Source: Pseudoalteromonas rubra
GTDB lineage: Bacteria > Pseudomonadota > Gammaproteobacteria > Enterobacterales > Alteromonadaceae
Direction: 5' to 3'
Length of the DNA stretch: 64,000 nt
Assembly (NCBI RefSeq): GCF_005886805.2
Contig: NZ_CP045429.1
Location: forward strand, 4,372,501 to 4,436,500
Position numbers and translations under genes: made by a program. The notes beneath the pieces were generated by a model that saw only the letters and a list, made by a program, of their open reading frames with translations, was not told where the DNA came from and did not search any database. Positions within the stretch are counted from its first letter, which is position 1, and every line of letters starts with the position of its first letter. This document shows positions 13,648 through 60,122 of the stretch, piece by piece.

Positions 13648-13723
13648 TGGTGCTGATAGGCAGATTTGAACTGCCGACCTCACCCTTACCAAGGGTGCGC
13701 TCTACCAACTGAGCTATATCAGC
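13648..13723 (-). tRNA. thrT: tRNA-Thr (GGT)
   Basis: 76-nt cloverleaf with acceptor stem GCTGATA/TATCAGC, anticodon loop CTTGGTA, T-loop TTCAAAT and an encoded CCA end. It is the last tRNA before tuf, as in E. coli thrU-tyrU-glyT-thrT-tufB. Confidence 0.97.
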
Positions 13724-13735
13724 ACACCAGAAAAC

Positions 13736-13810
<75 letters not shown>

Positions 13811-13854
13811 TTTAGGAACCTGTTCTTAACTACCTCTAACCGTCAAGAATAAAG

Positions 13855-13939
13855 TGGTGGAGGGGGCTGGATTCGAACCAGCGAAGGCAGTGCCGTCAGA
13901 TTTACAGTCTGATCCCTTTGGCCGCTCGGGAACCCCTCC
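13855..13939 (-). tRNA. tyrU: tRNA-Tyr (GTA)
   Basis: 85-nt class II tRNA with a long variable arm. Acceptor stem GGAGGGG/CCCCTCC, anticodon GTA in CTGTAAA, TTCGAAT T-loop and an encoded CCA end. Confidence 0.97.
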
Positions 13940-13980
13940 ACGTCAAAAAATTCTTGTCTAAAGCGTTGCTATTCAAAAAC

Positions 13981-14056
<76 letters not shown>

Positions 14057-57696: not shown

Positions 57697-57822
57697 AAAT
57701 TCCTTTTTGCAATTCAAGCAAACCCAGAATAACAACTTACTTGTTTACAGAATAGATACTCCCCATGCATAAATTCATAAAATAGCACCGTACTACAATA
57801 CACAACACACCAAAAACATAAA

Positions 57823-57882
57823 TGAGAATTATTTTCAAAAAGCAATTGACAGGCACAGAGATCTAATTGATAATCACTCTCA
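57823..57882 (+). promoter_or_regulatory. Fur-controlled promoter of sRNA 1
   Basis: Fur-like box TGAGAATTATTTTCA (57823-57837, 13/15 to TGATAATNATTATCA), -35 TTGACA (57846-57851), 17-bp spacer, -10 GATAAT (57869-57874), and a second, weaker Fur-like box over -10 (TGATAATCACTCTCA, 57868-57882). Confidence 0.85.
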
Positions 57883-58088
57883 ACAAAGTGACTTGACGGT
57901 TCATTTTGTTACTCTAATTGTTTCTCGACCCTGAAACGCGTGTCGCGCACGATAACAGCATTGGTTGTTAATGAGTTACATTGACGCCCCTTGGTGTAAC
58001 TCAACAACCACCTTCTATTTTACTTGCTACATTGCTCATATCGGTGACGGTAGATATGATCCCAAAAAGCCCTCCTCAGGGCTTTTTT
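57881..58088 (+). ncRNA. RyhB-like iron-stress small RNA, copy 1
   Basis: Predicted transcript of about 208 nt from seven bases past -10 to the T-run of the terminator. The conserved core at 58021-58058 contains CTACATTGCTCATATCGG; its ACATTGCTCATAT differs at one base from E. coli RyhB ACATTGCTCACAT. A second shared block, ACGCCCCTTGG, is at about 57983. No convincing reading frame exists. By analogy it would pair with mRNAs of iron-using proteins, with Hfq, when Fur is inactive. The ends are inferred; the family assignment rests on core, promoter and length, which is near that of the Vibrio RyhB (over 200 nt). Confidence 0.8.
58064..58088 (+). terminator. Terminator of sRNA 1
   Basis: AAAAAGCCCT / AGGGCTTTTTT with a CCTC loop; canonical. 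Confidence 0.9.
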
Positions 58089-58223
58089 CATTTCTGAACG
58101 AAGGCAGACTCCCTTTCGTATTCTCCCTGACAACTAAGTGCCAGCCACATCATCAAAAACGCCTGTGTAATGCCCCGCACAACATCAACGGATACAACTG
58201 CAAGAAGGAAGAGAAAAACCAAA

Positions 58224-58283
58224 TGAGAACTATTTTCAAAAAGGCATTGACAGGCACAAAGATCTAATTGATAATCACTCTCA
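58224..58283 (+). promoter_or_regulatory. Fur-controlled promoter of sRNA 2
   Basis: Fur-like box TGAGAACTATTTTCA (58224-58238), TTGACA (58247-58252), 17 bp, GATAAT (58270-58275), second box TGATAATCACTCTCA (58269-58283). It is nearly identical to copy 1. Confidence 0.85.
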
Positions 58284-58500
58284 ACAAAGCGAGATTGACG
58301 GCTCACTTTGTCGAAGTACGTAATTTGTTTCTCGACCCTGAAACACGTGATGCGCACGTAAACAGCACAGGTTGCAGGTGCTATGTATTAACGCCCCTTA
58401 ATGCAGGATACTTGCAACCAACTTACTATTTTACTTGCTACATTGCTCATATCGGTGACGGTAGATATGAACATAAAAAGCCCTGCTCGGGGCTTTTTTT
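58282..58500 (+). ncRNA. RyhB-like iron-stress small RNA, copy 2
   Basis: Predicted transcript of about 219 nt. The conserved core is at 58433-58470 and a block ACGCCCCTTAA at about 58391. The 5' part (AAAGCGAGATTGACGGCTCA) is closer to copies 3 and 4, while the promoter resembles copy 1, so it is a mosaic. The copies are tandem in the same direction, at 401, 322 and 318 bp between their -10 elements. Confidence 0.8.
58475..58500 (+). terminator. Terminator of sRNA 2
   Basis: AAAAAGCCCTG stem against GGGGCTTTTTTT with a CTC loop and a long U-run. Confidence 0.9.
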
Positions 58501-58545
58501 ATGCCTAAAATTTACTGCCTGATGATCCAATCACAAAAACGCAAA

Positions 58546-58605
58546 TGAGAATTAATTTCAAATAGATGTTGACTCCTGGAAAGAACTAATTGATAATCAT
58601 TATCA
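58546..58605 (+). promoter_or_regulatory. Fur-controlled promoter of sRNA 3
   Basis: Fur-like box TGAGAATTAATTTCA (58546-58560), -35 TTGACT (58569-58574), 17 bp, GATAAT (58592-58597). The overlapping box TGATAATCATTATCA (58591-58605) is a perfect 7-1-7 Fur consensus palindrome. Confidence 0.9.
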
Positions 58606-58824
58606 ACAAGGCGAGATTGACGGCTCAATTTGTTGATGTTTTAACTTGTTTTCGACCCAGAATAAGTACGTGTTGCTCACGCAAAAAAGCTTAGGTTGCA
58701 GGTGTAAAGTACCGACGCCCCTCGGTGTGGCTCACAGGCAACCAACTTACTATTTTACTTGCTACATTGCTCATATCGGTGACGGTAGATATGAAATCAA
58801 AAAGCCCTCCTCAGGGCTTTTTTT
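58604..58824 (+). ncRNA. RyhB-like iron-stress small RNA, copy 3
   Basis: Predicted transcript of about 221 nt. The core, identical to the other copies across at least 35 nt, is at about 58755-58792, and a block ACGCCCCTCGG is at about 58711. It is most similar to copy 4 (shared TGTGGCTCACAGGCAACC segment). The region outside the core and terminator varies, as expected for an RNA under selection in its seed. Confidence 0.82.
58799..58824 (+). terminator. Terminator of sRNA 3
   Basis: AAAAAGCCCT / AGGGCTTTTTTT with a CCTC loop. Confidence 0.92.
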
Positions 58825-58863
58825 ATGCCCGGAATTTAACTGCCTAACACAGAAGAACCTAAA

Positions 58864-58923
58864 TGAGAATTAATTTCAAATAGGTGTTGACACTGAATCA
58901 AATCTAACTGATAATCATTATCA
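58864..58923 (+). promoter_or_regulatory. Fur-controlled promoter of sRNA 4
   Basis: Fur-like box TGAGAATTAATTTCA (58864-58878), -35 TTGACA (58887-58892), 17 bp, GATAAT (58910-58915), and the perfect Fur palindrome TGATAATCATTATCA (58909-58923) across -10 and +1. It is the strongest promoter of the four by sequence. Confidence 0.9.
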
Positions 58924-59139
58924 ACAAAGCGAGATTGACGGCTCAATTTGTTGTAGTACTCAGTTTGTTTCTCGACTCAGAAGTACGTGTTGCTTACGCA
59001 AAAAGCTCTGGTTGAAGGTGAAAAACATTAACGCCCCTTGATGTGGCTCACAGGCAACCAACTCACATTTTACTTGCTACATTGCTCATATCGGTGACGG
59101 TAGATATGAAATCAAAAAGCCCTGCCCCGGGCTTTTTTT
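58922..59139 (+). ncRNA. RyhB-like iron-stress small RNA, copy 4
   Basis: Predicted transcript of about 218 nt with the same core (about 59070-59108), a block ACGCCCCTTGA at about 59030, and its own terminator. It ends 29 bp before the convergent GTPase gene. Confidence 0.82.
59114..59139 (+). terminator. Terminator of sRNA 4
   Basis: AAGCCC / GGGCTT stem with a TGCCCC loop, flanked by A5 and T7. It could also serve the convergent GTPase gene. Confidence 0.9.
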
Positions 59140-59168: not shown

Positions 59169-60122
59169 TTAACGACGGTTTTTACGCGCACGAGCACGGC
59201 GCTGACGTTTTTCTTCTTCTTTGGCTGCTTTCTTCGCCTCTGCGGCCAAACGCAACTGGGCCACCATTTCTTCTTCCTCATCCCGCATTTGTGGTGTTTC
59301 CATGGTGATACGGCCAATGACGGCATCGCGCAGTTCGTTGATCAGGATCTCCGACATTTTGTGCGTATCGACCTGATTGCCACCGCGAATACAGCCACGC
59401 TTACGTCCGGCCATTTCAATAAAAGTCCAGTCGCACTCGGGCAGCTCGTCAATTTTATAGCGTGCCTGCAACAGTTGAGGGTAGGCCTGTAACAGATACT
59501 CTGCGGTATAACTGGCCACTTCCTCATAATTGATTGCAGTATCACGAATGGCGCCGGTGGCAGCCAGACGATATCCCGAGTTTTCGTTTTCTACTTTAGG
59601 CCACAACATGCCCGGCGTGTCATACAACATAATGCCGTCTTCCAGCTTAATACGCTGTTGGGCCTTAGTGACCGCCGGTTCGTTACCCGTTTTAGCCACA
59701 ATTCGTCCGACCAAAATGTTAATTAAGGTAGATTTACCGACATTGGGGATCCCCATAATCATGGCCTTTAGCTGCTTATCCTGACCCACTTTTTGCGGTG
59801 CCAGCTTCTTACACAAGGCATTGATCCGCTGTACCTCGTTGCCCTTGTCATGGCCAAATGCGAGGGTTTTGACGCCATCTTCGCGCTCAAAGTAGTCCAT
59901 CCAGGCCTGGGTCTGCTCAGGGTCGGCCAGGTCAGCCTTGTTCAGAATTTTGATGACCGGCTTGTCGCCGCGCAACTGCGCCACCATGGGGTTTTCACTG
60001 CTGTAGGGTATACGGGCATCCAGCACTTCAATAATCACATCCATCTGCGGCATGATCTCTTTGATCTCATTGCGCGCCTTGTTCATATGTCCCGGAAACC
60101 ACTGGATACCTGTTCTGCTCAT
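59169..60122 (-). CDS. Circularly permuted ribosome-assembly GTPase (YlqF/RbgA type)
   Basis: A 317-aa GTPase with permuted motifs: G4 NKAD (residues about 59-62) comes before G1 GIPNVGKST (about 121-129), and G3 DTPG (about 168-171) follows. The N-terminal IQWFPGHMNKA signature is that of YlqF/RbgA, which matures the large ribosomal subunit. The C-terminal tail (about 280-317) is a Lys/Arg-rich, probably RNA-binding helix. ATG at 60120-60122. It is a single gene, convergent with the small RNA cluster. Confidence 0.9.
   Translation of the reverse strand: MSRTGIQWFPGHMNKARNEIKEIMPQMDVIIEVLDARIPYSSENPMVAQLRGDKPVIKILNKADLADPEQTQAWMDYFEREDGVKTLAFGHDKGNEVQRINALCKKLAPQKVGQDKQLKAMIMGIPNVGKSTLINILVGRIVAKTGNEPAVTKAQQRIKLEDGIMLYDTPGMLWPKVENENSGYRLAATGAIRDTAINYEEVASYTAEYLLQAYPQLLQARYKIDELPECDWTFIEMAGRKRGCIRGGNQVDTHKMSEILINELRDAVIGRITMETPQMRDEEEEMVAQLRLAAEAKKAAKEEEKRQRRARARKNRR

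Follow-up and report, generated by a model that had tools for sequence, protein, structure and literature searches.

A tandem array of four genes in Pseudoalteromonas rubra most probably encodes Fur-repressed, trans-acting small RNAs (sRNAs) of the iron-sparing type, which, together with a fifth copy located elsewhere in the genome, are predicted to block synthesis of the iron superoxide dismutase (FeSOD) via pairing of a hairpin loop with codons 5-8 of its mRNA. From the sequences compared here we assign this reading a probability of about 0.78. The likely target and the mechanism, i.e. the contact between loop and FeSOD mRNA, are the new result of the analysis. The array as such had been described in an earlier note on this DNA, which contained neither the orphan fifth copy nor the complementarity to sodB in the loop adjacent to the linear stretch.

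Organization of the array

The array occupies positions 57820-59139 of the window (NZ_CP045429.1; the window is the whole 64-kb stretch of DNA that was analysed) and consists of four direct-repeat units arranged head to tail, with start-to-start spacings of 411, 324 and 315. Repeat and promoter scans confirmed the arrangement given in the earlier note, with -10 hexamers (GATAAT) starting at 57869, 58270, 58592 and 58910 and TTGACA or TTGACT 17 bp ahead of each. The promoters (57846-57881, 58247-58282, 58569-58604 and 58887-58922, on the plus strand like all other elements of the units) were the best four of six promoter-like sites between 57700 and 59250 and showed 10-11 of 12 matches.

Each promoter is accompanied by two Fur-like boxes. 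The upstream box, which is kept between the units and reads AAATGAGAATTATTTTC in unit 1 (57820-57836, 58221-58237, 58543-58559 and 58861-58877 in units 1-4), matches the consensus GATAATGATAATCATTATC at 13, 12, 13 and 12 of 19 positions. The box overlapping the -10 element, located at 57869-57881 in unit 1 and present as GATAATCATTATC at 58592-58604 and 58910-58922 in units 3 and 4, reaches 13, 13, 15 and 15 of 19. Among 20,000 random 47-nt windows from the rest of the 64-kb window, a score of at least 12 was found in 2.7%, of at least 13 in 0.3% and of at least 15 in none; two of the four upstream boxes score just 12, which is the level of 2.7% of the random windows. Fur-binding sites are thus predicted at all four promoters, and the sequence supports the previous description of the units as tandem, Fur-controlled sRNA genes of the iron-sparing type.

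With the RNA start set to the eighth base past the -10 element, the predicted sRNAs comprise 207 nt (57882-58088), 218 nt (58283-58500), 220 nt (58605-58824) and 217 nt (58923-59139). Each predicted RNA is one nucleotide shorter than the 208, 219, 221 and 218 nt given in the earlier note. ACATTGCTCATAT, a GC-rich hairpin and then T occur in all four units. Likewise, the intrinsic terminators claimed for each unit were recovered as stems by reading the sequence together with the repeat table (58064-58087, 58475-58498, 58799-58822 and 59114-59137), but the automated scan of the plus strand listed the one of unit 1 only. In an alignment of the four units the 5' half is variable, and the 3' core is identical over more than 40 nt. 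The convergent neighbour outside the array, on the minus strand at 59169-60122, encodes the ribosome biogenesis GTPase YlqF (TIGR03596, 353.8 bits versus a cut-off of 208.2). A cluster of four tRNA genes was noticed in another part of the window (13651-14056, minus strand).

The RNA core and its predicted folding

The 3' core is composed of a U-rich linear stretch, TTTTACTTGCTACATTGCT (58018-58036, 58429-58447, 58753-58771 and 59068-59086 in units 1-4), the hairpin CATATC-GGTGACGGTA-GATATG (58037-58058, 58448-58469, 58772-58793 and 59087-59108) and the terminator. Units 1-3 include the hairpin in their minimum-energy fold, as does the orphan copy in a form with a longer stem; in unit 4 it appears in the centroid structure only. 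Compared to shuffled sequences, the whole RNAs folded with z values of -4.1 (unit 1), -4.4 (unit 2), -2.5 (unit 3) and -2.7 (orphan copy), and unit 4, with -1.07, was not clearly better than its shuffles. Isolated hairpin pieces folded just 0.9-1.1 standard deviations better than shuffles. RNAalifold detected the hairpin in 33 cores with nearly no covariation (term -0.01, both-sided change in one of 16 pairs), which is to be expected since the stem hardly varies. In the five RNAs of P. rubra the loop is predicted to be unpaired to 62-91%.

For comparison within the genus we used 98 distinct units from the fetched loci, identical ones being counted once and those short of upstream sequence being dropped. 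The loop GTGACGGT, which lay outside the motif by which the units were gathered, is kept in 96 of them. It is also kept in two orphan copies of other genomes with an altered stem, where the change is compensatory in one case (CATATT..AATATG, L064_u1 of G015) and one-sided in the other (CATATT, L065_u1 of G001). No part of the aligned cores varies less than the linear stretch, partly by construction because this very stretch, with at most 2 mismatches, served to collect the units. A TTGA(C/A)-type promoter precedes 97 of the 98 units, and the 91 of these 97 in which a terminator T run was recognized by the criterion applied here were used for the length and coding counts.

Complementarity to the FeSOD mRNA

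The gene sodB is the classic target of RyhB, and superoxide dismutase genes were examined for this reason. Codons 5-8 of the FeSOD gene, CUACCGUCAC (nucleotides +13 to +22), are complementary to GGUGACGGUAG, the loop of the core hairpin. Within this site CTACCGTCAC is the exact complement of GUGACGGUAG in the loop, and a further G-U or A-U pair is possible. This complementarity near the translation start was found in all 29 FeSOD genes of the genus (one per genome in the 29 Pseudoalteromonas genomes searched). Codons 5-7 read CTA CCG TCA in 29 of 29 genes and are mostly followed by CTA or CTT; the first base of codon 8 is C in 28 genes and T, which still permits a G-U pair, in one. By contrast, 28 FeSOD genes taken from the best-scoring loci of 27 other genera of the family all lack CTACCGTCAC. 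Residue 7 of the protein is Ser in 29 of 29 genes of the genus, whereas in the outgroup it is Ala (25 genes) or Pro (3 genes).

The conservation of the site extends to the nucleotide level. In the 28 genes with 193 codons (the 29th gene, with 194 codons, was excluded from this count) the longest stretch of the 579-nt coding sequence without any variation is GAACTACCGTCA at nucleotides 10-21, i.e. 12 nt compared to 8 nt for the next longest. Of 71 codons with an invariant amino acid and at least four synonyms, five are invariant in all letters, and three of these five are codons 5, 6 and 7. The match to the loop thus appears to have frozen FeSOD codons across the genus.

The duplex predicted for the hairpin and the FeSOD mRNA of P. 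rubra has an energy of -21.9 kcal/mol, compared to a mean of -11.9 for shuffled targets, and none of 2000 mononucleotide shuffles reached it. For duplexes of the loop with the FeSOD starts of the genus the worst of the 29 genes had -16.5 (mean -18.7), while the best of the 28 outgroup genes yielded -12.8 (mean -9.6). For the second dismutase of P. rubra, of the manganese type by sequence class, the duplex energy of -11.9 was no better than that of shuffles. The FeSOD protein itself scores 331 bits, which is below the NCBIfam cut-off for the iron type (348) but greatly exceeds the 159.5 of the manganese type.

The decamer CTACCGTCAC occurs 11 times in the genome of P. rubra and is rarer than its reversed control (48). 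Four of these sites are antisense to the sRNAs of the array, and of the seven others only the FeSOD site combines a start codon with a ribosome-binding-like sequence. In the predicted fold of the mRNA the accessibility of the site varies by base, with unpaired values of 0.2-0.94, and two bases in its middle are mostly paired (0.2).

The hexamer GCAATG, which would permit pairing of the RyhB type at the start codon, was detected in none of the 29 FeSOD starts of the genus and in none of the 28 of the outgroup. Start-codon pairing of the kind known for RyhB and sodB was rejected on this ground, and the expectation of the earlier note that pairing involves the RyhB-type motif ACATTGCTCA was not borne out for sodB. 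About 85% of the known pairing sites of repressing sRNAs are given as lying within -40 to +20 of the start codon (PMC4231754, in the text available). The FeSOD site lies at +13 to +22, and we therefore interpret the array as a regulator of FeSOD with an iron-sparing role.

Proposed mechanism and significance

Promoters of this kind are repressed by Fur with bound iron as long as iron is plentiful, and sRNAs pairing near a start codon block ribosomes. When iron becomes scarce, Fur would leave both boxes of each promoter and RNAs of about 210 nt would be made. Their loop GGUGACGGUAG would then pair with codons 5-8 of the FeSOD mRNA, CUACCGUCAC, within or at the edge of the footprint of the initiating ribosome, so that translation of FeSOD would be blocked; degradation of the mRNA would probably follow. 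For further targets and for Hfq, the linear stretch UUUUACUUGCUACAUUGCU is the probable site. Copy number, which varies between 1 and 5 in 107 genomes, may shift through tandem duplication and loss. Altogether we infer an iron-dependent expression of the array, a role of Hfq, repression of FeSOD and an effect of gene dosage.

A more far-reaching version can be put forward tentatively, at somewhat less than even chance. According to it, the array represents an iron-sparing sRNA that is specific to the genus and may have arisen independently of RyhB; its kissing-type contact between loop and FeSOD coding sequence would have frozen three codons including that of residue 7 (Ser instead of Ala or Pro), with a dosage drifting between 1 and 5 copies by birth and death of tandem units. 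If the proposed contact with FeSOD is real, the regulatory link between RyhB and FeSOD can outlast a shift of its pairing site, away from the start codon to codons 5-8 and to a hairpin loop on the side of the sRNA, and an sRNA can constrain the synonymous codons and even one amino acid of its target throughout a genus. With 1-5 copies occurring naturally, the question of why bacteria keep sibling sRNAs would furthermore be open to a direct test by dosage.

Copy number and distribution in Pseudoalteromonas

A DNA search of the two contigs of P. rubra revealed the orphan copy on contig 2 (G000:C2:106538-106610). It is part of locus L003:2380-2612 (about G000:C2:106379-106611) and has its own double Fur-like boxes and promoter, a shorter 5' part and the same core with the loop AGTGACGGTT; the predicted RNA comprises 170 nt.

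Searched for with a tolerance of 2 mismatches, the 23-nt pattern of the core was present in 107 of 108 Pseudoalteromonas genomes in 1-5 copies, and the reversed pattern was found in none. Zero, 1, 2, 3, 4 and 5 copies were counted in 1, 13, 38, 37, 17 and 2 genomes, respectively, the maximum occurring in P. rubra and in G007, its best match. The assumption that the copy number is unusually high is in line with PMC4211561, whose available text gives two copies per species for RyhB and PrrF siblings. Four-copy tandem arrays are also present in P. aurantia 208 and Pseudoalteromonas sp. MSK9-3, among the matches listed. The earlier note had also suggested looking for the cluster next to YlqF in other Pseudoalteromonas genomes; YlqF was found beside the array at only 15 of 31 loci (1.5-kb flanks), and the other 16, including the orphan locus, gave no YlqF match.

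With the complete array as DNA query, all 108 genomes were matched at E values up to 0.001, G096 weakly (4e-4). G096 is the sole genome of the genus without a core at up to 2 mismatches, and the covariance model of the core, R1, reached at most 24.6 bits in it. Its FeSOD gene (L204) still contains the complementary codons, and the core may either have been lost or fall into an assembly gap (180 contigs). Under stricter filters R1 yielded 71-102 bits in 12 of 246 genomes of the family, all of them Pseudoalteromonas. Other genera contributed three matches at about 30 bits (L051-L053), which were judged to be due to chance by score and gene context, and a more sensitive pass of R1 over G096 and 39 genomes of sister genera gave nothing above 30.5 bits. 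In named genomes, 79 of the 80 matches listed for the 19-mer CTTGCTACATTGCTCATAT belong to Pseudoalteromonas; the remaining one, in a Bacteroidales MAG (L328), lacks the hairpin sequence after the 19-mer and was taken as chance. The searches run here thus revealed no convincing match outside the genus.

In the unit tree, the units of the clade containing the window group by array position across species, with 18 of 38 inner branches open. Unit 3 clusters with the extra copy of G007 inside the group of units 3 and 4 and therefore looks like a recent duplication, i.e. the youngest copy of the array. In G042 two copies group with each other within the species.

Relation to RyhB and other known systems

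A RyhB-like function of the array sRNAs is well supported as a prediction. Their membership in the Rfam family RyhB (RF00057), implied by the earlier note, is not supported: the model gave no match between 57700 and 59250 at E values up to 10, and its six matches in the genome of P. rubra, which at a cut-off of 55 bits reach 23.7 at best, all lie outside the array locus. This result says little, because RyhB of Shewanella was missed by BLAST and by the Rfam model as well (PMC2964681, in the text available).

With RyhB of Enterobacteriaceae and Vibrionaceae the array RNAs share the promoter with Fur boxes, ACATTGCTCA in the 3' core, the intrinsic terminator and the FeSOD mRNA as likely target. 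They differ in the unmatched Rfam model, in 1-5 copies and in the neighbourhood: polA follows the RyhB-type loci L104, L111 and L122 and hemB precedes that of L122, whereas at the array these genes are absent and YlqF is the neighbour. Moreover, E. coli RyhB pairs with sodB between the ribosome-binding site and the start codon (PMC4231754), whereas the contact predicted for the array is made by a hairpin loop at codons 5-8. As a side observation, the RyhB-type cores of L111, L112 and L104, from other families of the order, occur as tandem pairs, located upstream of polA in L111 and L104; the second core of L104 ends with TTTT instead of TTCC.

Going by the description in PMC2964681, Shewanella RyhB (168 nt in S. 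oneidensis) resembles the array RNAs in being longer than E. coli RyhB, in having a Fur box and in tandem duplication, with two tandem copies in S. amazonensis. It differs in its position downstream of SO4716 and in at most two reported copies, and the available text of this paper contains no description of a pairing between a loop and FeSOD codons. PrrF1 and PrrF2 of Pseudomonas aeruginosa are, by their layout, likewise tandem iron-sparing siblings, but with two copies and the joint product PrrH (PMC4211561). Similar numbers of sibling copies are given for the Vibrio Qrr RNAs and the Streptococcus csRNAs (4-5 and 2-6, respectively; PMC4211561), which respond to other signals and act on other targets, the Qrr copies being dispersed. 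In titles and abstract openings of open-licence literature on RyhB, Fur and iron sRNAs, sodB pairing and Pseudoalteromonas we found no description of the RNAs reported here, nor are they mentioned in the available parts of three Pseudoalteromonas papers (PMC11277574, PMC12096840, PMC11882849).

How the array is related to RyhB by descent is a matter of two opposing groups of observations. The longest exact run shared with the RyhB pairing core ACATTGCTCACATTGCTTCC is the 10-mer ACATTGCTCA. When unit 2 was shuffled 20,000 times by mononucleotides, 73 of the shuffles shared a run of at least 10 nt with a 30-nt core of the polA-linked RyhB type. In polA-linked RyhB-type loci the 10-mer is likewise located on the 3' side, ahead of the terminator. 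Furthermore, in loci which we term Vibrio-like, inspection by eye showed one Fur-like box ahead of the -35 element and another near the -10 element, as in the array. The shared 10-mer and the double box favour a common ancestry with RyhB, while the failed Rfam match, the different neighbours and the different contact with FeSOD indicate strong divergence or an independent origin. That the sRNAs are true RyhB descendants which still use the ancestral ACATTGCTCA as main seed on ancestral targets, the loop being merely structural, appears improbable to us; the invariance of the linear stretch would fit this, partly by construction as mentioned above, but the conserved FeSOD complementarity belongs to the loop and GCAATG is missing at every FeSOD start. 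An independent invention, in which a Fur-controlled sRNA of this genus without RyhB descent converged on FeSOD, differs from our preferred reading in ancestry only and is a real possibility, if a doubtful one. The restriction of high R1 scores to Pseudoalteromonas is consistent with it, as is the lack of exact ACATTGCTCA at 29 YlqF loci fetched from other families, five of which contain one-mismatch matches. Against it stand the common position of the 10-mer, the similar box layout and the precedent of the Rfam-missed Shewanella RyhB.

Two further explanations concern the nature of the transcripts. Adjacent units might mainly give rise to longer read-through RNAs, for which the tandem arrangement and the precedent of PrrH, made from prrF1-prrF2 (PMC4211561), could be adduced. 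This is very unlikely in view of the promoter and terminator stem in every unit and of core-to-core spacings that vary between species. That the units are a mobile or protein-coding repeat instead of RNA genes can hardly be maintained. They are direct repeats, the core has two frames without stops and YlqF flanks not all of the loci, but the core occurs in nearly every Pseudoalteromonas genome and each unit has its promoter and terminator. There is also no conserved reading frame: in 50 of 91 units the best one runs through the core without a stop and has a start within the transcript. The protein-coding reading was rejected for this reason, and the coding-type conservation that the earlier note had named as evidence against RNA genes was not seen. 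Our preferred reading, iron-sparing sRNAs acting on FeSOD through the loop, accommodates either ancestry.

Further candidate sites and motifs

A search of the P. rubra genome for sites complementary to the linear stretch (16 nt, up to 3 mismatches) yielded 64 non-self sites compared to 41 for the reversed pattern. Six of the 64 are located outside a longer frame and between -40 and +75 relative to a start codon that has a ribosome-binding-like sequence. One of them, 69 nt ahead of iscS, falls within the last part of iscR (L406), another lies 43 nt ahead of ccoG (L174) and a third 14 nt into nqrD (L183); the three remaining ones are L165, L387 and L400. The sites at iscS, ccoG and nqrD, genes of iron-sulfur assembly or respiration, are regarded as leads only.

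A second conserved motif, ACGCCCC, was observed in or beside the predicted loop of a middle hairpin (57984-57990 of the window and equivalent positions) in 85 of the 98 distinct units. It could pair with purine-rich ribosome-binding sites.
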